Of a stretch of 64,000 bases of DNA, positions 3,385 through 14,911 are shown one piece after another (positions within the stretch are counted from its first letter, which is position 1; the number at the start of each line of letters is the position of its first letter). The stretch lies in contig NZ_VDOR01000001.1 in NCBI RefSeq assembly GCF_007666205.1, forward strand, positions 310,001 through 374,000, read 5' to 3'. The DNA is from Kocuria palustris (GTDB taxonomy: Bacteria > Actinomycetota > Actinomycetes > Actinomycetales > Micrococcaceae). The position numbers were made by a program, and so were the translations under genes. The notes beneath the pieces are model-generated. The model ran no database searches. It saw only the letters and a program-made list of their open reading frames with translations, and was not told the origin of the DNA.

Positions 3385-3399
3385 GATTGTTGAACAATC
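3385..3399. promoter_or_regulatory. Palindromic operator of FadR/FCD GntR type (site 1)
   Basis: A perfect 7-bp inverted repeat around one central base, GATTGTTGAACAATC. Its core TTGTTGAACAA fits the TNGTNNNACNA pattern known for FadR-subfamily GntR regulators. It sits 52 bases before the pxpA start and about 120 bases before the divergent fadH-like start. A candidate rightward -10 (GATAGT, 3406-3411) follows it. A near-copy lies before the Nramp-like gene at 14897-14911. The GntR protein encoded at 7700-8428 is the obvious candidate to bind it. Confidence 0.7.
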
Positions 3400-3450
3400 G
3401 CTTCCGATAGTTCATCCTGTTCCGACCACAGCAAGAGGAGGCCGACTCCC

Positions 3451-4233
3451 ATGAGCGCCATCACCACCGGTCAGCCCCGGATCGATCTGAACGCGGACTG
3501 CGGGGAGTCGCTGACGTCCTGGGCCATGCCCGACGGCGCCGAGATCCTCGAGGTCGTCTCCAGCGCCAACGTGGCCTGCGGGTTCCACGCCGGCGATCCG
3601 TCGGTCGCGCGCGAGACGTGCCGCATCGCCTCCGAGCGCGGCGCCGCGATCGGGGCGCACGTCAGCTACGACGACCTCAAGGGCTTCGGGCGCCGGTTCA
3701 TCGACGTCGTCCCCTCCGAGCTCACGGACCAGGTCGTCTACCAGATCGGCGCGCTGCAGGCCTGCGCCCGCTCGGTGGGCGCGCAGGTCCGCTACGTGAA
3801 GCCGCACGGCGCGCTCTACAACACGATCGTGCACCACGAGGCGCACGCGGCGGCCGTGGTCCGGGCGCTGGTCGAGCTCGGCGACGAGCTCCCGATCCTC
3901 GTGCTGCCGGACTCCGAGATCGAGCGGCAGGCCGCCGCCGCGGGCGTCCCCACGGTGCGCGAGGCCTTCGCCGACCGCGCCTACACCCCGGAGGGCCGCC
4001 TGGTCTCCCGCCGCGAGGAGGGCTCGGTGCTGCACGATCCCGCCGAGATCTCCGCCCGCGTGGTGCAGATGGCCACGCAGCGCACCGTCGCCGCGATCGA
4101 CGGCTCGACCATCGCCGTGGACGCCGCGTCGATCTGCGTCCACGGGGACACTCCCGGCGCGCTCGAGATCGCCCGGCAGGTCTCCGCGGCGCTGGCGGAG
4201 GCCGGCGTCGAGCAGCGGTCGTTCCTCTCGTGA
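3451..4233 (+). CDS. pxpA: 5-oxoprolinase subunit A (LamB/YcsF family)
   Basis: A 260-residue protein of the LamB/YcsF family, which has a polysaccharide-deacetylase-like barrel. The N-terminus carries the family signature DLNADCGES (residues 12-20), followed by NVACGFHAGDP and later VKPHGALYN, both hallmarks of PxpA. With PxpB and PxpC it forms the ATP-dependent 5-oxoprolinase that opens pyroglutamate to glutamate in the cytoplasm. A GAGGAG ribosome site precedes the ATG. The next gene, the PxpB-PxpC fusion, starts inside the stop codon, so the two should be translationally coupled. The operator-like palindrome at 3385-3399 suggests regulation by the GntR protein downstream. Confidence 0.93.
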   Translation: MSAITTGQPRIDLNADCGESLTSWAMPDGAEILEVVSSANVACGFHAGDPSVARETCRIASERGAAIGAHVSYDDLKGFGRRFIDVVPSELTDQVVYQIGALQACARSVGAQVRYVKPHGALYNTIVHHEAHAAAVVRALVELGDELPILVLPDSEIERQAAAAGVPTVREAFADRAYTPEGRLVSRREEGSVLHDPAEISARVVQMATQRTVAAIDGSTIAVDAASICVHGDTPGALEIARQVSAALAEAGVEQRSFLS

Positions 4234-5900
4234 GCCGCTACGAGATCCCGCAGCGCCCGCTGCGCCCGGTCGCCGACCACTCGCTGCTCGTCGAGTGCGC
4301 GGATCTGGCCGATGCCGTGGCCGTGCACGCCGCCCTGTCCGAGGACGGGTACCGGGGCGTGGGCGGCGCCTCCACGGTGCTTATCCGCACCGCCGACCGC
4401 CCCGCCCTCGAGGCCGCCCTCGCGCGCATCCCCCGGGGCTCCCTGGCCGATCAGCCGGGCCGGGAGATCACCCTCGACGTCGTCTACGACGGGGAGGACC
4501 TCCACGAGCTCGCCGATTCGCTGGGGGTCTCCGCCGACGGGCTGATCGCCTGGCACACGGCCGAGCCGTGGATCGCCGCGTTCGCCGGCTTCGCCCCGGG
4601 CTTCCTGTACTGCGCCCGCTCGCTGGAGTCTGTCGAGGGCCTCGAGCTGCCCGAGCCCCTGCGGGGCACCCCCGAGATCCCGCGCCGCAGCACCCCTCGC
4701 ACCGCCGTGCCCGCCGGCTCCGTGGGCCTGGCCGGGCAGTTCTCGGCCGTCTACCCGCGCAGCTCCCCGGGCGGGTGGCAGCTGCTGGGGCGCACGACGA
4801 CGCCCATGGTCGACCTGCGCCGGGATCCGCCGGCGCTGCTGGCCCCCGGCGACCGCCTGACCTACCGTGCGGTGCGCGAGGCCGTGGAGCTCCGGCCCGC
4901 TCCCGCTCCCGAGGAGCCGGCGATCGATCCGTCGCACCACCTGGTGCTCGAGACCGCCGGGCTGCAGGCCCTCGTGCAGGATCGCGGTCGCCCCGGCCGG
5001 GCGGACGTGGGCATCTCCTCGTCCGGCGCCCTGGACCGGGCGGCCGCGGATCGGGCGGCCCGCCTGGTCGGCAATATGCCGGACACGGCATGCCTGGAGA
5101 GCGTGCTCGGCGGTCTGGAGCTGCGCGCCGTGGGCGATCAGGTCCTCGCCGTGACCGGGGCGCCCGTCGAGCTCGAGATCATCGCGGCGCCGTCGTCGGA
5201 GCCCTCCGCGGAGGGGGAGGCCCCGGCAGCCCGTGACTGGCGCCCCCGCACCGGGCTGCCCTTCGCCCTCGAGGACGGGCAGCGGCTGCGCGTCGGGGCG
5301 CCGGCGGACGGGCTGCGCGTCTACATCGCGGTCCGCGGCGGCATCGACGCCGCCCCGGTGCTGGGCAGCCGCGCCGGCGACACCCTGGCGGGCCTCGGCC
5401 CGTCGGCGCTCGCCGACGGCGACCGCCTGGCGGTCGGGCGCGATCCCGGGACCGCCGTCGACTGGCCGCTCGAGGTCGCCGGCGCCGCGGAGGCCCGGCC
5501 CGCGCCGCCGGGCGGGCCCGTGGAGGTCCGCGTGGTCCTCGGCCCGCGCGAGGACTGGTTCACCCCGGAGGCCCTGGCGTCCTTCCAGAAGCAGGAGTGG
5601 ACCGTCTCGGCGGCCTCCGACCGCGTGGGCGCCCGGCTCGAGGGCCGGGAGCTCGCCCGCCGCATCGAGCGCGAGCTGCCCAGCGAGGGCACGGTGCCCG
5701 GCAGCATCCAGGTGCCGGCCTCCGGCCTGCCCGTCGTGTTCCTGAGGGACCACCCCGTGACCGGCGGCTATCCGGTCATCGCCACCGTGGTCGAGGCCGA
5801 CCTGGACCTCATGGCCCAGGCGGCCCCCGGGAGGACGGTGCGCTTCGTCGCCGTCGATCCCGCCGCCGCACCCATCACTTCCCCTTCCGAGACCCGCTGA
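4230..5900 (+). CDS. pxpBC: Fused 5-oxoprolinase subunits B and C (KipI-KipA fusion)
   Basis: A 556-residue protein in one frame. The first ~215 residues match PxpB/KipI (allophanate hydrolase subunit 1 fold), including the signature GFAPGFLYC. The remainder matches PxpC/KipA (subunit 2 fold), with [20 protein letters not shown] marking its start near residue 250. In E. coli and Bacillus these are separate genes; a fusion is common in actinobacteria and in urea amidolyases. The start is GTG at 4230, giving a GTGA overlap with the pxpA stop. The encoded product should complete the ATP-dependent pyroglutamate hydrolase. The next gene starts 10 bases later, so the operon continues. Confidence 0.9.
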   Translation: MSRYEIPQRPLRPVADHSLLVECADLADAVAVHAALSEDGYRGVGGASTVLIRTADRPALEAALARIPRGSLADQPGREITLDVVYDGEDLHELADSLGVSADGLIAWHTAEPWIAAFAGFAPGFLYCARSLESVEGLELPEPLRGTPEIPRRSTPRTAVPAGSVGLAGQFSAVYPRSSPGGWQLLGRTTTPMVDLRRDPPALLAPGDRLTYRAVREAVELRPAPAPEEPAIDPSHHLVLETAGLQALVQDRGRPGRADVGISSSGALDRAAADRAARLVGNMPDTACLESVLGGLELRAVGDQVLAVTGAPVELEIIAAPSSEPSAEGEAPAARDWRPRTGLPFALEDGQRLRVGAPADGLRVYIAVRGGIDAAPVLGSRAGDTLAGLGPSALADGDRLAVGRDPGTAVDWPLEVAGAAEARPAPPGGPVEVRVVLGPREDWFTPEALASFQKQEWTVSAASDRVGARLEGRELARRIERELPSEGTVPGSIQVPASGLPVVFLRDHPVTGGYPVIATVVEADLDLMAQAAPGRTVRFVAVDPAAAPITSPSETR

Positions 5901-5910
5901 GGAGCCCATC

Positions 5911-7659
5911 GTGCAGAAGGTCCTGATCGCCAACCGCGGCGAGATCGCCGTGCGCATCATCCACGCCTGCGCCGAGGCCGGCCTGACCTCGGTGGCCGTC
6001 TACGCCGATCCCGACGCCGACGCCCCGCACGTCCACCTGACCGACGAGGCCTGGGCGCTCGAGGGCACGAGCCCCGCCGAGACCTACCTGGACCAGGAGG
6101 AGATCCTCGAGATCGCCCGGCGCAGCGGCGCGGACGCCGTCCACCCCGGCTACGGCTTCCTGTCCGAGAACGCCTCGTTCGCCCGCGGGGTCGTCGAGGC
6201 CGGCCTGACCTGGATCGGGCCGAGGCCCGAGACCATCGAGAAGCTCGGCGACAAGGTCCAGGCCCGCGACATCGCCCGCTCCGTGGGCGCCCCGCTGGTG
6301 CCCGGAACCGACGGCCCCGTCGACTCGGGCGCGGAGGCCACGGCCTTCGCCCAGGAGCACGGCCTGCCGATCATCATCAAGGCCGCCCACGGCGGCGGCG
6401 GGCGCGGGATGCGCGTGGTCCGCGAGCTCTCCGAGGTCGAGGACGCCTTCGCCTCCGCGGCCCGCGAGGCGCAGAGCGCGTTCGGGCGCCCCGAATGCTT
6501 CGTCGAGCGGTTCCTGGACGAGCCGCGCCACGTCGAGGCCCAGGTCGTGTGCGACTCCCACGGCGCGGTGGCCGTGCTCGGCACGCGCGACTGCTCCCTG
6601 CAGCGCCGCCACCAGAAGCTCGTGGAGGAGGCGCCGGCGCCCTTCCTCGGCGACGAGCAGCGCGAGCGCATCCACACCTCGGCCGCTCGGATCTGCCAGG
6701 AGGCCGGCTACGTGGGCGTCGGGACCGCCGAGTTCCTGGTCGGGCGCGACGGACTGATCTCGTTCCTCGAGGTCAACACCCGCCTGCAGGTCGAGCACCC
6801 GATCACCGAGGAGGTCTTCGGCGCGGACCTGGTCCAGCTCCAGCTGCTCGTGGCCGACGGCGGGCACCTGCCGGAGGGCCTGGGCGAGCAGCCGCAGGGC
6901 CATGCCTTCGAGTTCCGCGTCAACGCGGAGGACCCGGGTCGCGGCTTCCTGCCCGGCGGCGGGCGGATCGAGGCGATCGACGCTCCCACGGGCCCCGGCA
7001 TCCGCGTGGACTCCGGCGTGCGCGCCGGGCAGGAGGTCGCCACGACCTTCGACTCGATGCTGCTCAAGCTGATCGTGCACGCCCAGGATCGGCCGTCGGC
7101 CCTCCGCCGGGCGCGCCGGGCGCTGGCCGAGCTGCGCATCCACGGCGCGGCCACCACGCTGCCGTTCCACCGCGCGGTGATCGAGGCCCCCGAGTTCGCG
7201 GGCGAGTCCGCCGAGGACTTCACCGTGCACACCGCCTGGATCGAGACGGACTTCGCCGAGCGGCTGGACGACGACGACGGCTACGTCGCCGACTACCTGC
7301 GCGCCGCCGAGCTGGGGCGCTCGCGCTTCGCCGTGGACATCGACGGCCGCCGCGTGATGCTCGGCGTGCCCAAGGCGCTGGCCGCCGCTCTGGAGTCCGG
7401 AGCGCAGGGCTCCTCGTCGGCCGCGGAGCCCGCCGCCGCCGACGACGGGGCGGTGACGGCCGGCGTCGGCGGCACCGTCCTGAAGTGGCTCGTGGAGGAG
7501 GGCGCGCAGGTCGAGGCCGGCGACGACCTGCTGGTCCTCGAGGTCATGAAGACCGAGTCCAAGGTCAGCGCCCCGAGCGCGGGCACCCTCTCCGAGCGCG
7601 GCGTGGCCGAGGGCGATGCGGTCTCGGCCGGCCAGGTGCTCGGTCGCATCTCGGCGTGA
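5911..7659 (+). CDS. Biotin carboxylase fused to biotin carboxyl carrier domain
   Basis: A 582-residue protein built like the alpha subunit of acyl-CoA carboxylases. It opens with the biotin carboxylase signature KVLIANRGEIAVRII, carries the glycine-rich ATP-grasp loop AAHGGGGRGMR and the substrate loop EVNTRLQVEHPITEE, and ends in a biotinyl domain (about residues 510-582) with EVMKT, whose Lys takes biotin. The start is GTG at 5911 with AGGAG before it. No carboxyltransferase subunit lies in the window, so it must borrow one encoded elsewhere. Biotin carboxylase/BCCP genes often accompany pxp genes, but their role there is not settled. Confidence 0.88.
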   Translation: MQKVLIANRGEIAVRIIHACAEAGLTSVAVYADPDADAPHVHLTDEAWALEGTSPAETYLDQEEILEIARRSGADAVHPGYGFLSENASFARGVVEAGLTWIGPRPETIEKLGDKVQARDIARSVGAPLVPGTDGPVDSGAEATAFAQEHGLPIIIKAAHGGGGRGMRVVRELSEVEDAFASAAREAQSAFGRPECFVERFLDEPRHVEAQVVCDSHGAVAVLGTRDCSLQRRHQKLVEEAPAPFLGDEQRERIHTSAARICQEAGYVGVGTAEFLVGRDGLISFLEVNTRLQVEHPITEEVFGADLVQLQLLVADGGHLPEGLGEQPQGHAFEFRVNAEDPGRGFLPGGGRIEAIDAPTGPGIRVDSGVRAGQEVATTFDSMLLKLIVHAQDRPSALRRARRALAELRIHGAATTLPFHRAVIEAPEFAGESAEDFTVHTAWIETDFAERLDDDDGYVADYLRAAELGRSRFAVDIDGRRVMLGVPKALAAALESGAQGSSSAAEPAAADDGAVTAGVGGTVLKWLVEEGAQVEAGDDLLVLEVMKTESKVSAPSAGTLSERGVAEGDAVSAGQVLGRISA

Positions 7660-7699
7660 GCCGGGTCGGCGGGGTCTGCCGCCCTGGCACGATGGCGCC

Positions 7700-8428
7700 A
7701 TGAGCGATGCAGCGGAGGCCCCCGTGCCGGACCTGGCGATGGTGGGCCCCATCCGAGTCCAGGTCGAGTCGCAGCACGAGACGCTGGGCGCGGTGGGCCG
7801 GGGCGCCGAGGTCCTGCGCCGCGCGGTCGTCACCGGGGTGCTGCGACCGGGCGCCCGCCTGCCCGAGGAGCGGCTGGCCGCGGAGCTGGGCATCTCGCGC
7901 AACTCCCTGCGCGCGGCGTTCGACGAGGTCGAGCAGGAGCACCTGGTCGAGCGCGAGCGCAACCGCGGCATCCGCGTGTGCGTTCCGGACGCCTCGACCG
8001 TGCACCAGATCCACCGCAACCGGCTGGCCCTCGAGGGCGCCGCGCTGCGCTGGCCCGAGGCCGGGGCTCGGCCGCGGGCGGTCGAGCAGATGCGCCGGGC
8101 GGTCGAGACAGGGCGCTGGGCCAGGGACGCGGAGCAGGTCGCGGCCATGGCCGAGGCCAACGACGCCTTCCACCGCGCGGTCGTGTCGCTGTCGGACTCG
8201 TCGCGCCAGCTCGAGCAGATGAAGCGCGTGCAGGCCGAGCTGCGCCTGCTCTTCCATACGCTCGACGACACCCCCGCCTTCCATCAGCCGTGGGTCGAGC
8301 GCAACGCCGCGCTCGTCGAGCTGGTCGCGCAGGGGCGCGATGCGGAGGCCGCCGAGCGGATCGGGACCTACCTGCAGGATTCGCGGCGCACGATCCTGGA
8401 GCTGTGGGGCCGGCCCGCGGGCCGCTAG
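7700..8428 (+). CDS. GntR-family transcriptional regulator, FadR/FCD type
   Basis: A 242-residue one-component regulator. Residues about 35-95 form the winged helix (LPEERLAAELGISRNSLRAAF, then an arginine-rich wing). The C-terminal helical part, from roughly residue 105, resembles the FCD ligand-binding domain, which usually senses an organic acid through bound metal. It is last in the 5-oxoproline gene block, 40 bases after the biotin carboxylase, and probably senses 5-oxoproline or a product. Its expected operator, TNGTNNNACNA, is found at 3387-3397 and 14899-14909. No Shine-Dalgarno is seen; CACGAT ends 6 bases before the ATG. Its stop shares a CTAG with the convergent gene. Confidence 0.85.
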   Translation: MSDAAEAPVPDLAMVGPIRVQVESQHETLGAVGRGAEVLRRAVVTGVLRPGARLPEERLAAELGISRNSLRAAFDEVEQEHLVERERNRGIRVCVPDASTVHQIHRNRLALEGAALRWPEAGARPRAVEQMRRAVETGRWARDAEQVAAMAEANDAFHRAVVSLSDSSRQLEQMKRVQAELRLLFHTLDDTPAFHQPWVERNAALVELVAQGRDAEAAERIGTYLQDSRRTILELWGRPAGR

Positions 8429-9186
8429 GCCTGCCCCTGGATGATCGCGATCTTCTGCCAGACCTTGCGGGCCATGTCCGAGGTCAGTGTCTCGATGCCC
8501 TCGACCCCGTCGATGACCTCGCCATCCGTCGTGTCCTCGGCGAACAGGGCCGCGGTCTTGCCCACGAGGGAGAGCATCTCGGTGCAGTAGTCCAGGTAGT
8601 GGCGCAGCTGCTCGCGGCTCAGGTCCAGGCCGCCGTCGGCGCGGGAGCCGCGCTCCAGGCGCTCGGGGACCTTGGTGAGCTGATGCATGTCGATCACGTG
8701 GGCCAGGGAGCGCAGCCGATGCAGCAGGCGCATCACGCGGGCTCGCTCCATCCGCTCCGGCACCGCGATCAGGAAGAACACGGCCAGTCCCGCGAAGACG
8801 ACGTTGTTGATCACGGTCTCGAGCAGCGGCAGGAAGTCGATCGGGCCGATGGCGTCCGGGTCGGCCCAGATGTCCGCGGCGGCCAGCAGGATCGTGACGG
8901 CCAGGAACACGACGATCAGCACGATGGCCAGCCGGGAGAGGACCCGGGCCGCACGGATGCGCCGACGGCTGATGCCGCCCTCGGAGCCGACCTCGTCCAC
9001 CAGGGCCGCGAGCTCGCCGCAGACCTCCCACAGCCCGCGGTCCGGGAAGCGCGAGCGGATGCGCTGCTGCAGGGCCACGGTGGAATCGCGCACGGCGCCG
9101 TGGTCGAGGCTCTGGTAGCGGCTGCCGTCGGGCGGGCTGTCGTCGTGGTCATCGGGCCGGTCGGCCATCCGGTCGAGATAGGACAC
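8425..9186 (-). CDS. Two-helix membrane protein of unknown function
   Basis: A 253-residue protein that I do not recognise. It has an acidic, Asp-rich N-terminus and two hydrophobic segments (RLAIVLIVVFLAVTILLAAA near residue 86 and VVFAGLAVFFLIAVPERM near 132). A long charged helical tail follows, with a LLHRLRSLAHVIDMHQLTK stretch. This suggests a small membrane protein with a cytoplasmic helical domain. The start is GTG at 9186; TACTCT ends 6 bases upstream and there is no ribosome site, so the mRNA may be leaderless. Its stop overlaps that of the GntR gene in the palindrome CTAG (8425-8428). Confidence 0.6.
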   Translation of the reverse strand: MSYLDRMADRPDDHDDSPPDGSRYQSLDHGAVRDSTVALQQRIRSRFPDRGLWEVCGELAALVDEVGSEGGISRRRIRAARVLSRLAIVLIVVFLAVTILLAAADIWADPDAIGPIDFLPLLETVINNVVFAGLAVFFLIAVPERMERARVMRLLHRLRSLAHVIDMHQLTKVPERLERGSRADGGLDLSREQLRHYLDYCTEMLSLVGKTAALFAEDTTDGEVIDGVEGIETLTSDMARKVWQKIAIIQGQA

Positions 9187-9341
9187 CAGGAGAGAGTACG
9201 GCCAGTCGGGGTGCGCCGATGCACGAGCGGACTGTGATGTGAGGCATGAGCGGCCGATGCCTCACCTCGGCGCCCTCTCGCGGCTGCCCGCGCGGCTCCG
9301 GGATCAGCAGGGCGCTGCGCACTAGGATCGATGGCTTCGAC

Positions 9342-10496
9342 GTGACCCCCCCCGACGACGAGGCTGATGTGACCCCTGCGCGCCCCCGGAGCCGCTCCTC
9401 CGCGACGATCGGATGCCTGGGCTGCGGCGGCTGCCTGGTGCTGGCGGTCCTCGCGCTCGCGGTCATGGTGGTCATCGGGCTGCTCGTCGGCCCGCAGCCG
9501 GAGGACACGGCCGGCGGGGAGCCGACGACGTCGGCGCCGGCGTCCCCTGCTGAGGAGCCCGCCGCGGGCGAGCCGTCCGCCGAGGACGCGTCCCTGGCCC
9601 CGCAGGCCGAGGAGGAGGACCCGGAGCAGGAGTCCTCGGGGCCGGCGGCCTCCGAGCAGCGGTCCGAGCACTCGCCCGCGCCGATCGAGGACAGCTCGGC
9701 CTCGGACGCCGCGTCGGCGCTGGCCGTCCTGGACACCCTCGAGGTCAAGGGCCGCGCGCCCAAGACGGGCTACGGCCGTGATCGGTTCGGTCCCACGTGG
9801 GAGGACGTCGACGGCAACGGGTGCAGCACCCGCAACGACATCCTGGCCCGCGACCTGACGGACCTCGAGCGGGAGGACGGCTGCGCCGTGACCTCGGGGC
9901 TGCTCCAGGATCCCTACACGGGCACCGCGATCGACTTCACCGCCGGCGTCGACACCTCCGCCGACGTCCAGATCGACCACGTCGTGGCGCTGTCCGACGC
10001 CTGGCAGAAGGGCGCTCAGCAGATGAGCGAGCAGCAGCGGCTCGTCTTCGCGAACGACCCGCTGAACCTCCTGGCGGTCGACGGCCCGACCAATCAGTCC
10101 AAGGGCGATGCCGACGCCGCGACCTGGCTGCCCCCGAACCGCGACTACCGATGCCCGTACGTCGCCCGGCAGGTGGAGGTGAAGTCCAAGTACGACCTGT
10201 GGGTCACCCAGCCCGAGCACGACCGGATCGAGGACGTGCTCCAGGACTGCGACGACCAGCCGGCGTCCGAGACCTCCGCGGACCCGGCGGCCCCGCCGGC
10301 CGACGGCGTCCCGGACCCGGCCCCGGAGCCCGCACCGGAACCGGACCCCGCTCCCGCGCCCGAGCCCGACGCCCCGGCGCAGAGCTTCGGGAGCTGCGCG
10401 GAGGCCCGCGCGGCGGGTGCGGCGCCCCTGCACCGCGGCCTGCCCGGCTACTCGCCGCGCCTGGATCGCGACGGCGACGGGGTCGCCTGCGAATGA
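9342..10496 (+). CDS. Membrane-anchored HNH nuclease (DUF1524-like) with excalibur domain
   Basis: About 384 residues. An N-terminal hydrophobic helix (CLGCGGCLVLAVLALAVMVV) is followed by a long Pro/Glu/Ala linker. The central domain has the HNH/DUF1524 signature QIDHVVALSDAWQKGA, then NDPLNLLAVDGPTNQSKGD and DAATWLPPN, the pattern of a nuclease with catalytic His. After a Pro-rich EPAPEPDPAPAPEPD spacer the protein ends in an excalibur domain with calcium-loop motif DRDGDGVACE. It should act outside the membrane. The start is uncertain: GTG at 9342 or 9369 are the best candidates; an ATG at 9246 would put a poorly conserved-looking extension before the helix. Two more excalibur proteins lie at 58-60 kb. 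Confidence 0.8.
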   Translation: MTPPDDEADVTPARPRSRSSATIGCLGCGGCLVLAVLALAVMVVIGLLVGPQPEDTAGGEPTTSAPASPAEEPAAGEPSAEDASLAPQAEEEDPEQESSGPAASEQRSEHSPAPIEDSSASDAASALAVLDTLEVKGRAPKTGYGRDRFGPTWEDVDGNGCSTRNDILARDLTDLEREDGCAVTSGLLQDPYTGTAIDFTAGVDTSADVQIDHVVALSDAWQKGAQQMSEQQRLVFANDPLNLLAVDGPTNQSKGDADAATWLPPNRDYRCPYVARQVEVKSKYDLWVTQPEHDRIEDVLQDCDDQPASETSADPAAPPADGVPDPAPEPAPEPDPAPAPEPDAPAQSFGSCAEARAAGAAPLHRGLPGYSPRLDRDGDGVACE

Positions 10497-10523
10497 CCGG
10501 GCCGCGCCCGATGTGACGAGACT

Positions 10524-10542
10524 CGCGGGAGTCCGTCCCGCG
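10524..10542. terminator. Possible terminator hairpin after the HNH nuclease gene
   Basis: A 7-bp perfect stem, CGCGGGA pairing with TCCCGCG, with a 5-base loop, 28 bases after the nuclease stop. There is no T-run, so intrinsic termination is only suggested. The rest of the 204-base gap up to the MFS start shows only the ribosome site at its end. Confidence 0.35.
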
Positions 10543-10700
10543 ACGGCCTGGCGGGATGCGCGAGACCGGGCATAGCGTGGCATGCGGTGCTGTGCGCGGA
10601 CGGCGAGGTCACGCGGCAGCACTTCTCCATGTGCCCGGTCCGCTGCGCGCGACCCGCCGCTCGTGACCCCTCGTCGACCCGTCCCTCCCGGAGGTGCCCC

Positions 10701-12002
10701 GTGACCGCTGTGCCCGAGACCCAGGCCGGAGCCGGTGCGCCGCTGTCCCCGGCGCGCCGCCGCACCGCGCTGATCGCCCTGGCGCTGGGCGGGTTCGGCA
10801 TCGGCTGCTCCGAGTTCGTCGCCATGGGCCTGCTGCCGCAGATCGCCGACGCGCTGCTGCCGGAGCTGATGGCGACGCAGCCGGAGCAGGGGCTGGCCCG
10901 CGCGGGCTGGGCCATCACGGCCTATGCGCTGGGCGTCGTGATCGGCGCCCCGCTGCTGTCCCTGCTGGCCGTGCGCATGAGCCGGACCCGGCTGATCGTG
11001 GTCTTCGCCGCACTGCTGGCCGTGAGCACGCTGGCCTCGGCCGCCATGCCGAGCTTCGAGCTGACGCTGCTGTCCCGCTTCGTCGCGGGGCTGCCGCACG
11101 GCGCCTACCTGGGCGTGGCCTCGCTGCTGGCGAGCTCGCTGCTGGGTCCCGGCTCCCAGGGCAAGGGCGCGGCCGTCGCGCTGTCGGGCCTGGCCGTGGC
11201 CAACCTGGCGGGCGTGCCCCTGCTGACGGCGCTGGGCCAGGCCGCCGGATGGCGCGCGGCCTTCCTGACGATCGCGGCGGTCTTCGCCCTGACCACCCTC
11301 CTGGTGGCCACGACGATCCCGTCCCAGCCCGCGCCGCAGGGCCGCCGCGTCCAGGACGAGCTGCGCGCCTTCTCCCGAGCGCAGCTGTGGGTGGTCATGC
11401 TCATCGCCGCGGTGGGCTTCGCCGGATCGTTCGCGGTCTTCAGCTACATCGCCGACATCGGCCGGCAGGTGGCCGGGATGAGCGCCGGCTTCATCCCCGT
11501 CCTGCTGGCGGTGGCCGGGCTGGGCATGATCATCGGCAACGCCATCGGGGGCTTCGCCACGGACCGCTCGCTCGAGCGCACTCTGCTCGTGGCCTTCCCG
11601 CTCTACATCGCCGCGATGGTGCTCCTGGTCCTCGCGGTCGCCCACCCGGTGGGCCTGACCGTGGGGTTCTTCCTCACCAACATGGGCCACGCGACGCTGG
11701 GCCCGGCCATGCAGACCTGGCTCATGCGCGTGGCCGGGCCCTCCGAGATGCTGGGCGCCTCCCTGCATCACGCCGCGTTCAACGTGGCCAATGCCCTCGG
11801 CGCCATGCTGGGCGGTGCGGTGATCTCCGCGGGCTTCGGGCTGGCGGCTCCCACGGTGGTCGGCCTGACGGTCGCGACCCTGGGCTACCTCATGCTCCTG
11901 GCCTCGTTCGCCCTGCTGCGGATCCGCTCGCGGCGCTTCCGCCGCGAGCTCGACACCGCGCAGGTCCCCGTGCACTCCCCCGAGGACGCCTCGGCCCGCT
12001 GA
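10701..12002 (+). CDS. MFS transporter, DHA1 (AraJ-like) efflux family
   Basis: A 433-residue, 12-helix major facilitator. The first helix reads ALIALALGGFGIGCSEFVAMGLLPQIA, typical of the AraJ/YdhP-type drug:H+ antiporters. The loop between helices 2 and 3 carries a degenerate signature A (VRMSRTRLI). The central cytoplasmic loop is short. Substrate is unknown; relatives export sugars, purine analogues or drugs. I chose the GTG at 10701 because GGAGG ends 6 bases before it; upstream in-frame codons have no support. It stands alone, followed 167 bases later by ohr. Confidence 0.85.
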   Translation: MTAVPETQAGAGAPLSPARRRTALIALALGGFGIGCSEFVAMGLLPQIADALLPELMATQPEQGLARAGWAITAYALGVVIGAPLLSLLAVRMSRTRLIVVFAALLAVSTLASAAMPSFELTLLSRFVAGLPHGAYLGVASLLASSLLGPGSQGKGAAVALSGLAVANLAGVPLLTALGQAAGWRAAFLTIAAVFALTTLLVATTIPSQPAPQGRRVQDELRAFSRAQLWVVMLIAAVGFAGSFAVFSYIADIGRQVAGMSAGFIPVLLAVAGLGMIIGNAIGGFATDRSLERTLLVAFPLYIAAMVLLVLAVAHPVGLTVGFFLTNMGHATLGPAMQTWLMRVAGPSEMLGASLHHAAFNVANALGAMLGGAVISAGFGLAAPTVVGLTVATLGYLMLLASFALLRIRSRRFRRELDTAQVPVHSPEDASAR

Positions 12003-12169
12003 GCTCGGCCGGCCCCTCCTCGCCGCGCGGCTTCCAGGTGCTCGCTCGGACCGGCGCGGCGGCCCGCGCGAGGTGGTCGCGCAGCCGATGCACACATGTC
12101 TTGACGGGAGTCCTACGCTGAGAGCACCGCGCGCCGGAGACGCCGGGCGCGGATCACGAGGAGGATGAC

Positions 12170-12589
12170 ATGGATCCCCTGTACACCACCGAGGCGCTGG
12201 CCACCGGCGCAGGACGAAACGGCAGCGTGACGGTCCCCGACGGGGGCCTGGAGTTCGATCTGGCCTCGCCCCGGGCCATGGGCGGCAGCGGCGACGGGAG
12301 CAACCCGGAGCAGCTCTTCGCCGCGGGCTACGCGGCCTGCTTCCACTCCGCGCTGCAGCTCACCGCCAAGCAGCGGGGCAAGGACCTGGGCGACTCCTCC
12401 GTGGGCGCCAAGGTCTCCATCGGCAAGGAGGGCGAGGGGTTCGGCCTGGCGGTCGAGCTCGAGGTCGTCATCCCGGGCATGCCGCACGACGAGGCGCAGG
12501 AGCTGGCCGATGCGGCGCATCAGGTCTGCCCGTACTCCAATGCCACGCGCGGCAACATCCCGGTGGAGGTCACGGTCTCGGACGACTGA
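12170..12589 (+). CDS. ohr: Organic hydroperoxide resistance protein (Ohr/OsmC family)
   Basis: A 139-residue thiol peroxidase. It starts with LYTTEALATGAGRNGSV, as in Ohr rather than OsmC. The two redox cysteines are Cys57 (AAGYAACFHSAL) and Cys120 (HQVCPYSNATRGN), spaced as in the family. It reduces organic hydroperoxides in the cytoplasm using lipoylated partners. An AGGAGGATGAC ribosome site lies directly before the ATG. No MarR-type OhrR gene is adjacent, so its regulator must be elsewhere. It converges on the YcsI-like gene with 9 bases between stops. Confidence 0.92.
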   Translation: MDPLYTTEALATGAGRNGSVTVPDGGLEFDLASPRAMGGSGDGSNPEQLFAAGYAACFHSALQLTAKQRGKDLGDSSVGAKVSIGKEGEGFGLAVELEVVIPGMPHDEAQELADAAHQVCPYSNATRGNIPVEVTVSDD

Positions 12590-12598
12590 TGCGCGGCC

Positions 12599-13393
12599 TC
12601 AGGGCACCTGGTACGACGCGTTCGGCGCGTCCGTGATCAGCATGTGCCCCGGGGCGTGACCGATCGCGAACGGGACGCCGCTGGCCGCGACGGCCGCCTG
12701 GGGCGTGACGCCGCAGGCCCAGAACACGGGCAGCCATCCGTCGGGGATCTCCACGGCATCGCCGTAGTCGGGCCGCGCGAGATCCCCGATGCCGATGGCT
12801 CCCGGGTCGCCCACGTGCAGCGGCGCCCCGTGCACGGCCGGGTAGCGCGAGGTGATGCGCACGGCGTCGGCCACCATGGCCCCCGGCAGCGGCCGCATCG
12901 AGACCACGGTCGGTCCGTGCAGCCGGCCTGCGGCTCCCGCCGGGATCGACGTGCGGTACATCGGCACGTTGACGTCCTGGTCCTGATGCGCCAGCGGCAG
13001 ACCGGCCTCCAGCAGTGCGGCCTCGAACGTGAAGCTGCACCCGATCAGGAAGGCCACCAGGTCATCGCGCCACAGCTCGGTGACGTCGGTGGGGGAGTCC
13101 ACGAGCTCGCCGTCGCGGTGGACGGTGTAGCGCGGGATGTCCGTGCGGATGTCGCCGCCGGGCAACAGGTCGCTGCTGAGCTGCCCGGCCTCGAGCACGC
13201 CCAGCAGCGGGCAGGACTTCGGATTGCGGTGGGCGAAGAGCAGGACGTCGTAGGCCCAGTCCTGCGGCACCGCGATGAGATTGGCCTGGGCGAAGCCGTC
13301 GCACCACCCGGAGGTGGGCGCGGCCCGGCCGGAGCGGAAGAGCTCCCGCGCGGCGGCGGGGCTCAGCCTCGAGACGGGGACGTCGTCGTGCAT
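12599..13393 (-). CDS. YcsI/DUF1445 family protein, putative hydro-lyase or D-glutamate cyclase type
   Basis: A 264-residue cytoplasmic protein. Family marks are [15 protein letters not shown] near residue 29, [12 protein letters not shown] near 56, and a C-terminal [12 protein letters not shown] ... [14 protein letters not shown]. Members are annotated putative hydro-lyases; vertebrate relatives (DGLUCY) cyclise D-glutamate to 5-oxo-D-proline. In Bacillus subtilis ycsI sits with ycsF (pxpA), ycsG and kipI-kipA. Here it follows the YcsG-like gene by 31 bases in the same direction, and the shared promoter carries the same operator-like palindrome as pxpA. A role in 5-oxoproline or glutamate interconversion is therefore likely but inferred. 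Confidence 0.85.
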
Positions 13394-13424
13394 GGGAGCT
13401 CCTTCCGCCGCGCGGGTCGGGGGA

Positions 13425-14762
13425 TCAGGACCAGAGCTTGGCGATGCCGGACAGGGACAGCCAGCCCAGGACCAGCGTCAGGATCCACACCAGCGTGCCG
13501 ATCAGCGCCAGCCACTTGGGGTAGGCGTACCCGTGGAGCAGGTCGCGGCGGAACCAGGCCACGATCAGGATGACGGTGAATCCGATGGGCAGGATCAGCC
13601 CGTTCACGGCGCCGGCCACGATCAGCAGCGTCGAGGGAGCCTGACCGAGCAGGAGGAACACGGTCGCGGAGATCGCGATGAACGCGACCGTCAGGATGTT
13701 GCGGGTCCGTCCGGAGGTCCTGTCCGTGGTGATGAACGAGACCGAGGTGTAGGCGGCGCCGATCACGGAGGAGATCGAGGCGGCCCAGAGGATCAGCCCG
13801 AACAGGCGCAGGCCGATCTCGCCGGCGGCCGCCTGGAAGGCCTGGGCCGCGATGTTCTCGCCGGCCAGCTGCACGCCGCCGGCGACGACGCCCAGGATGG
13901 CCAGGAACAGCAGGAAGCGCATGACGCCGGTGATGACGATGCCCAGCACCGACGAGTTGGAGATGCGGCGGGCGTTCTCGGGTCCGGTGATCCCGGAGTC
14001 GACCATGCGGTGCGCACCCGCGTAGGTGATGTAGCCGCCGATGGTGCCGCCGATCAGCGTGGTGATCACGAAGAAGTCCACCTGCTCCGGCAGGACCATG
14101 TTCTTCATGGCGTCGCCGACGGGCGGGTCGGAGACGATCGCGACGTATCCGGTCACCAGGATCATCACGACGCCCAGGCCGACCACGATCTTGTCGAGGG
14201 CCGCGCCGGCCTTCTTGGACAGGAACACCCCGATGGCCAGCAGGGCGGTGATGAGCCCGCCCCACTTGGCGTCCAGGCCCGTCATGGCGTTGATGCCCAG
14301 GCCGCCGCCGGCGGTGTTGCCGATGTTGAAGACGAGGCCGCCGATCGCGACCAGCACGGCCACGAGCCAGCCGAGGCCCGGCAGCACGGCATTGCCGAGC
14401 TCCTGGGCCTTGTACCCCGAGACGCCGATGACGCGCCACACGTTCAGCTGCACCGCGATGTCCACGAGGATCGACAGCAGGATCGCGAAGGCGAAGGCCG
14501 CGCCGAGCTGGACCGTGAAGTTCGCGGTCTGGGTGATGAAGCCCGGCCCGATGGCGCTCGTCGCCATGAGGAACAGGGCGCCCAGGATCGCCTGACGGGT
14601 GGAGGAGGAGGCCAGGGCGGGCGTGGCCGCGCCGGTCGTCTCGACGTCCGAGGCGCCCGAGGCGCCCGAGGCGCCCGGTGCAGGGCTGCTGCCGGAGGGT
14701 GCAGCAGTGCGTGCGGAGCCTGCGCCCTCGGCGGGGTTCAGCTCGGGATCGTTCTGGGTCAT
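13425..14762 (-). CDS. Nramp-like (NRAMP family) transporter, YcsG type
   Basis: A 445-residue membrane protein of about 11 helices with the Nramp fold. An Ala/Ser/Thr-rich cytoplasmic leader of ~50 residues precedes helix 1. Classical metal transporters have DPGN in helix 1 and MPH in helix 6. Here helix 1 reads [17 protein letters not shown] and helix 6 reads [20 protein letters not shown], so both metal-binding motifs are missing. It is the YcsG-type branch that travels with pxp genes and may import an organic acid such as 5-oxoproline rather than metal; that is inference. The start at 14762 has a GAGG element upstream. It is first in a two-gene unit with the YcsI-like gene. Confidence 0.85.
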
Positions 14763-14888
14763 GGCCTGCCTCGAAGGGGTCAGCGGGGCGCGGAGCGGGC
14801 CGCGGCCACCGGTGGTGCGCACCGAGGGGGAGGACCGCCCCCGGCGTGGAGCCCCCGCTGGAGGGGAGCTCCGTGATCAGTGGGGGAC

Positions 14889-14911
14889 ACGGTACAGATT
14901 GTTCAACAAAT
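14889..14911 (-). promoter_or_regulatory. Operator (site 2) abutting the -10 of the Nramp-like gene
   Basis: GATTGTTCAACAAAT at 14897-14911 contains the perfect 11-bp core TTGTTCAACAA (14899-14909), the same palindrome as at 3387-3397. On the minus strand, TACCGT (14894-14889) begins two bases after it and is a good -10 for the Nramp-like gene, so the operator lies in the promoter spacer. A bound repressor would block polymerase directly. The divergent acyl-CoA synthetase promoter is about 40 bases further right. Confidence 0.7.

Follow-up and report, generated by a model that had tools for sequence, protein, structure and literature searches.

Two operons for 5-oxoproline in Kocuria palustris very probably share an operator of a PxpR-type GntR-FCD repressor

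The window considered here, a 64,000-nucleotide stretch of the Kocuria palustris genome (contig NZ_VDOR01000001.1, positions 310,001 to 374,000), encodes two sets of genes for the uptake and breakdown of 5-oxoproline (pyroglutamate). The first is a single rightward run of pxpA, a fused pxpBC, an accC-like gene and, its ATG 40 bp past the accC stop, a gene for a regulator (candidate pxpR), while the second is a leftward pair of a ycsI-like and a pxpT-like gene (Table 1). A preliminary description of this DNA had named the 5-oxoprolinase, Nramp-like and YcsI/D-glutamate-cyclase genes and a GntR regulator; domain searches agree with it throughout, and show a GntR helix-turn-helix (HTH) together with an FCD domain in the regulator. 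The same description proposed that one palindrome, present in the promoters of both sets, places them under this regulator. Comparison of sequences within the genome, across the genus and across distant bacteria indicates that the two palindromes are very probably operators of a PxpR-like repressor encoded by the GntR-FCD gene.

Table 1. Coordinates of the genes and of the predicted regulatory elements (window positions, except for the last row)
Feature	Positions	Strand	Basis or remark
Putative PxpR operator 1, 15-bp palindrome GATTGTTGAACAATC	3385-3399 (core 3387-3397)		position weight matrix score 30.8
Candidate -35 TTGAAC of the pxpA promoter, within the operator	3390-3395	+	inferred from alignment
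Candidate -10 CATCCT of the pxpA promoter	3413-3418	+	spacing 17 to TTGAAC
pxpA, 5-oxoprolinase subunit A (LamB/YcsF)	3451-4233	+	NF003814, 346 bits against a cutoff of 226
pxpBC fusion, 5-oxoprolinase subunits B and C	4230-5900	+	carboxyltransferase-like C/D and A/B domains
Biotin carboxylase-BCCP fusion (accC-like), apparently in the operon of pxpA	5911-7659	+	domain search
pxpR candidate, GntR-FCD repressor	7700-8428	+	PF00392 and PF07729 above cutoffs
Genes between the convergent operons	8425-12589		protein 8425-9186 (-); GmrSD_C/Excalibur 9246-10496 (+); MFS 10587-12002 (+); Ohr 12170-12589 (+)
ycsI-like D-glutamate cyclase/putative hydro-lyase	12599-13393	-	domain search
pxpT-like (YcsG/Nramp-family) 5-oxoproline transporter	13425-14822	-	Nramp family match
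Candidate -10 TACCGT of the pxpT promoter	14889-14894	-	operator 2 occupies the -35/-10 spacer
Putative PxpR operator 2 GATTGTTCAACAAAT	14897-14911 (core 14899-14909)		position weight matrix score 30.6
Putative third operator	C11:196850-196860		flanked by the 3' end of an AlkZ-like gene and by a permease gene, about 117 kb away

The pxpT-like gene is probably the equivalent of YcsG/PxpT, as judged by family and gene context rather than by direct alignment, and its open reading frame suggests that the true start may be 14762. The biotin carboxylase-BCCP fusion is also found in the 5-oxoprolinase run of many relatives, beside the carboxyltransferase-like PxpBC.

The pxpA promoter contains TTGTTGAACAA and that of the pxpT-like/ycsI pair TTGTTCAACAA. 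On the strand as given these differ in the central base alone, as had been reported earlier, but the difference is an effect of strand only: read toward its own oxoproline gene, each site gives the same 11-mer TTGTTGAACAA. The exact pattern TTGTTNAACAA occurs twice in the window (mean of 100 dinucleotide shuffles, 0.00) and at three places in the genome (2,824,357 bases, 61 contigs) against none for the reversed control, namely upstream of pxpA, of the pxpT-ycsI pair and of a serine/threonine-type permease gene outside the window. The idea of one operator at both sites is thus upheld. When one mismatch is allowed, the genome count of 11 comes close to the 8 of the reversed control, so that only exact sites stand out by genome count; the longer ATTGTTNAACAAT, with two mismatches allowed, occurs 8 times against 1 for the control. 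A position weight matrix trained on other Kocuria loci gives 2.3 as the best non-operator score within the window. The outer bases of operator 2 (GATTGTTCAACAAAT) are asymmetric, unlike those of GATTGTTGAACAATC at operator 1, and of the 13-mer form ATTGTTSAACAAT, which is found in the controlled promoters, operator 2 lacks one outer base. Both sites also fit the FadR-type pattern TNGTNNNACNA to which they were first assigned, but this loose pattern is uninformative alone, with three matches against 2.51 expected by chance.

The core of the window operators is identical to that (TTGTTCAACAA) of the PxpR operator of Corynebacterium glutamicum, AGATTGTTCAACAATCT. PxpR, its ligand and its operator are already known in this one species: according to the published account (PMC13274462, 2026), PxpR is a GntR-family repressor of pxpTABC whose motif agattgttcaacaatct had been proposed in RegPrecise, mutation or deletion of AGATTGTTCAACAATCT raises reporter expression 6.5-fold, and the protein binds 5-oxoproline with a KD of 726 nM, with no binding of L-proline, L-glutamate, L-glutamine or L-aspartate. 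The window protein shares with the C. glutamicum regulator the HTH and a C-terminal ligand-binding domain, here of the FCD type, and its gene likewise lies beside those of a 5-oxoprolinase and of a YcsG-like transporter, the transporter pair being 4 kb off across inserted genes.

Across the genus, the motif is present in 26 of 27 Kocuria genomes, and the exact sites number 66, whereas the reversed control has 17. These distribute as 22 at pxpA, 30 at pxpT, 10 at the permease and four elsewhere, i.e. 62 of 66 at the same three promoters. The pxpT sites include three between divergent pxpR and pxpT and 12 that form tandem pairs in six genomes; one, at a contig end, was placed by its promoter-like sequence alone. 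Among the four remaining sites, one in genome G010 precedes an amino-acid permease gene, and the two lone sites of G002 (L067, L068) and that of G019 (L055) were assigned to no promoter and treated as background. G019 has neither pxpA nor a strong GntR match, and its stray exact site is accompanied by three matches of the reversed control; G004 has no exact site and a one-mismatch site between pxpT and pxpR. A second pxpA paralogue, 36-39% identical, is found in eight Kocuria genomes, and an exact site precedes it in none of them. A chance origin of the sites is rejected by these genome-wide and genus-wide counts.

In 14 of the 16 Kocuria loci measured (tblastn bounds, window included) pxpR and ycsI stand tail to tail, 11-329 bases apart; therefore, the usual unit is a couple of convergent operons, each with its own operator. 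The gap widens to 4,177 bases in the window and to 5,356 bases in the sister genome G010, and in a tblastn search of the fetched Kocuria loci, which did not cover the GmrSD_C gene, the genes for the 8425-9186, MFS and Ohr proteins matched only in these two genomes. The GmrSD_C protein itself combines that domain with an Excalibur calcium-binding domain. The ycs-kip type genes had been described as split into two operons under one repressor; the two operons and the single operator stand, whereas the notion of a split does not, and a broken operon behind the 10-kb separation was rejected on the strength of the abutting convergent operons. A different arrangement is seen in G017, G020 and G022, where pxpR is divergent from pxpT-pxpA-pxpBC-accC with a single site between them, and pxpR is divergent in G004 too. 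The recognition-helix residues SRN(S/T)LR are kept in all 23 aligned Kocuria PxpR proteins, with identities to the window protein as low as 31% (the alignment covers 23 of 27 genomes, leaving out G001, where the gene is split between frames, G007 and G015, which were not taken, and G019, which has none). By sequence, the solved structure nearest to the window protein is 2hs5, named 'putative transcriptional regulator GntR' (E 4e-61, genus profile); with SRNT at its recognition helix, it may be an unrecognised PxpR.

Promoter alignments, from which the -35 and -10 elements were read by eye, place the operators relative to the presumed polymerase contacts. At pxpA, all 21 aligned sites (of 22) give TTGTTGAACAA, with G as the middle base, when read toward the gene, and a CATnCT begins 26 or 27 bases past the site start in these promoters, which makes TTGAAC within the palindrome plausible as the -35 element. 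The pxpT alignment comprises 23 promoters, each with one site, and excludes the contig-end site; in 19 of them a TAnnnT starts at +15, the others being the three divergent promoters and L065; therefore, the operator appears to fill the promoter spacer. Here G is the middle base in 12 promoters and C in the other 11. Either position would suit a repressor that blocks polymerase, and the geometry points to the oxoproline genes, as had been argued from the leftward -10 at 14889.

The third exact site makes the permease a likely further member of the regulon. This protein belongs to the tryptophan/tyrosine-permease Pfam family, which we take to be the family called HAAAP, and its best NCBIfam match is a serine/threonine transporter subfamily (454 bits, below the cutoff of 526). 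An intact permease gene is found in 14 of 27 Kocuria genomes (fragments only in G008), 10 of which have the exact operator. The site could be a chance or relic occurrence rather than a working operator, and in favor of this the permease genes of G003, G006, G013 and G021 are intact but have nothing close to the operator upstream, and outside the genus an exact site near the permease start was found in none of 21 family loci (197 family genomes sampled, 37 matched, 28 of them outside Kocuria and 21 of these examined as loci), with a one-mismatch site in three. Against it, all 10 sites are the identical 11-mer, oriented alike, with G as the middle base and a TA-rich -10-like element at 26-27 bases as at pxpA, and the core is constant while the flanks vary between species. 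We consider a chance or relic site unlikely; from its distribution within and outside the genus, the operator was probably gained, or lost elsewhere, within Kocuria. Under PxpR the permease may act as a further carrier of 5-oxoproline or glutamate, or in the co-uptake of amino acids that accompany 5-oxoproline. No solved structure matched the permease in a sequence search, and titles and listings of the literature on 5-oxoproline, serine transporter, repressor or Kocuria 5-oxoprolinase held nothing on such a target. Among the titles listed for the operator sequence, none was relevant.

Two one-mismatch sites, C1:43186-43196 and C1:47298-47308 (L260), flank two asparagine-permease-like genes. 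The former, at an AnsP-like permease gene, recurs among the Kocuria loci examined only in the sister genome G010, as an exact site (L071), and the latter, before an ornithine cyclodeaminase gene, recurs in none of four other genomes with that gene; given this near-absent recurrence both are kept only as weak leads. A tentative notion, which we hold to be somewhat less probable than its opposite, is that 5-oxoproline signals amino-acid-rich surroundings to Kocuria PxpR, which would then also induce the import of further amino acids, by way of the serine/threonine-type permease and, in two sister species only, perhaps through the asparagine-permease-like gene. A link of pyroglutamate and serine on skin is speculation, for which passages of PMC3627960 support the pyrrolidone carboxylic acid side only.

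We also scanned named genomes with the Kocuria PxpR alignment and, from at least 595 stretches, retained the best 80 of at least 484 that encode relatives, found partly via a peptide pattern of the recognition helix. Their record titles range from Arthrobacter, Streptomyces and Nocardioides to Pseudomonas, Paracoccus and enterics. Of these 80 loci, 64 contain the exact operator, with 85 occurrences in all; the reversed control gave none, and eight other palindromes were seen at most once each. Of the 85, 74 are close to the point where a pxp, pxpT or gntR gene is projected to start. The other 16 loci have, in 14 cases, a form of the operator with one or two mismatches beside gntR. The recognition-helix pattern in this selection favors the operator result, and a second test was therefore chosen by pxpA, free of that bias. 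For this, a pxpA search of 393 genomes of the class matched 257 genomes in 77 genera including Kocuria, and among the matches listed one locus was taken by hand from each of 50 other actinobacterial genera, the first listed in every case but one (the second for g85). The stretches extended about 9 kb to either side of pxpA, less at contig ends, and PxpR was called at more than 100 bits. All 17 loci with PxpR nearby have a site with no more than one mismatch, as do 5 of the 33 without it (Fisher 2.7e-9); for exact sites the counts are 11 of 17 and 1 of 33 (Fisher 3.4e-6). Both Fisher values are too small, since the genera share ancestry and are not independent. These counts support that the operator tracks a PxpR-type gene rather than pxpA alone.

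Besides the helix-guided selection and the shared ancestry, several points weigh against a PxpR operator. Two of the 80 loci, L180 and L202, have no operator-like site near gntR, and 11 of the 85 sites lie away from mapped pxp, pxpT and gntR starts, several of them before other transporter genes. The loci without PxpR in the fetched stretch contain one exact site (L317), four one-mismatch sites and one symmetric two-mismatch variant; one of these 33 loci has a 57-bit GntR match. Finally, the probable orthology to C. glutamicum PxpR is drawn from operator identity, gene partners and domain architecture.

In the loci without PxpR, the exact site L317:9897 lies near pxpA and the one-mismatch site L332:3324 near pxpT, and the PxpR for both may be encoded elsewhere. 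Some loci of Arthrobacter, Sinomonas, Paenarthrobacter and Cryobacterium (L162, L169, L171, L172, L174, L210, L224; L179) have the operator before unrelated transporter genes, as if the transporter had been exchanged under the same operator; these transporters we take to be DUF969-like and, in L179, NCS1-like. A symmetric variant, TCGTTGAACGA, with both half-sites altered together, is seen beside gntR in six Streptomyces loci (L177, L185, L199, L207, L231, L234) and one of Nonomuraea (L227). At the pxpT promoters of six Kocuria genomes (L038, L039, L052, L054, L061, L063) two operators are spaced 23-25, mostly 24, bases apart, and pairs of the same type, also 23-25 bases apart, are found at pxpT in five of the 80 loci (L163, L175, L194, L195, L219), with further pairs 22 apart in L224 before another transporter gene and 36 apart in L300; each site of the window is a single operator. 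Such pairing suggests that PxpR might bind pxpT promoters cooperatively.

Alternatively, a different regulator might bind the sites, leaving the 7700-8428 protein as a bystander with another operator. The genome does contain four weaker matches to this protein (E 7.9e-6 or worse), but the association in the 50-genus test, the position of the site between pxpR and pxpT in divergent arrangements and the recognition helix kept in all 23 aligned Kocuria proteins leave this highly improbable. Least probable of all, to the point of being negligible, is that the operator serves the outer neighbours, an OYE/fadH-like reductase gene left of operator 1 and an acyl-CoA synthetase gene right of operator 2, under an acyl-CoA-sensing FadR-like regulator. 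In its favor are the divergent orientation of both genes from the sites and the match of the operator to the loose FadR-type pattern. Against it, the Kocuria loci fetched (some cut by contig ends) show OYE and fadD neighbours nowhere but in the window and G010, the sites persist beside pxpA and pxpT in other Kocuria loci, the third site lies between two genes of which neither is a fatty-acid gene, the promoter geometry favors the oxoproline genes, and the regulator that acts on this site in C. glutamicum binds 5-oxoproline (PMC13274462). The preference of the preliminary description for the oxoproline genes over the fatty-acid genes is confirmed by these neighbourhoods and by the third site, and its single repressor for both gene sets is supported by the identity to the C. 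glutamicum operator, the recurrence in the genus and the tracking of PxpR.

Thus, with PxpR as the preferred regulator, we infer that the 7700-8428 protein acts as C. glutamicum PxpR does and binds as a dimer. In the absence of 5-oxoproline, a PxpR dimer on TTGTTGAACAA would block RNA polymerase, at pxpA by covering the -35 region, with TTGAAC in the palindrome probably the -35 itself, and at pxpT by occupying the -35/-10 spacer. Binding of 5-oxoproline to the FCD domain would release the repressor, and both operons, pxpT-ycsI for uptake and pxpA-pxpBC-accC-pxpR for catabolism, would therefore be induced together. As pxpR is the last gene of the pxpA run, it probably represses itself. The third operator would bring the serine/threonine-type permease under the same control.

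The sites, genes, conservation, aligned promoter geometry and co-occurrence with PxpR observed here extend the sole experimentally studied 5-oxoproline regulator that we found in print, from one species, to a pair seen in Actinobacteria and Proteobacteria. New in this regard are an architecture of two operons, with pxpR placed in the run of pxpA, a regulator-operator pair kept across distant bacteria, an operator that parts from pxpA where PxpR is missing, and a probable lineage-specific extra target. They suggest a rule for annotation, by which a PxpR-type GntR gene together with ATTGTTSAACAAT points to candidate genes for 5-oxoproline uptake, including those whose transporter belongs to another family. 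The permease target further raises the question of whether pyroglutamate is a bacterial cue for other amino acids.

Among known systems, FadR also has a GntR HTH and an operator of the GT-N3-AC type; the window protein probably differs from it in ligand and targets, has an FCD domain (PF07729) and sits among oxoproline genes, and neither the third site nor the Kocuria loci fetched point to fatty-acid genes as its targets. The ycs-kip operon of Bacillus subtilis is a single operon with the IclR-type regulator KipR, whereas the regulator within the block described here is GntR-FCD and PxpR-like; no IclR-type regulator was found in the block, the rest of the genome not having been searched for IclR genes. 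The B. subtilis operon likewise contains PxpABC and YcsG (PMC13274462). YcsI is presumably common to the two. The closest counterpart is PxpR-pxpTABC of C. glutamicum, in which, by the same account, a GntR repressor gene is again found beside genes for 5-oxoproline uptake, through an Nramp-family YcsG-like transporter, and for 5-oxoprolinase. There, a single operon is divergent from pxpR, and autoregulation is deemed unlikely by its authors; in the window, in contrast, two convergent operons have their own operators, pxpR lies within the pxpA run, pxpB and pxpC are fused, accC and ycsI are added, and a third putative operator is found at a distant permease.

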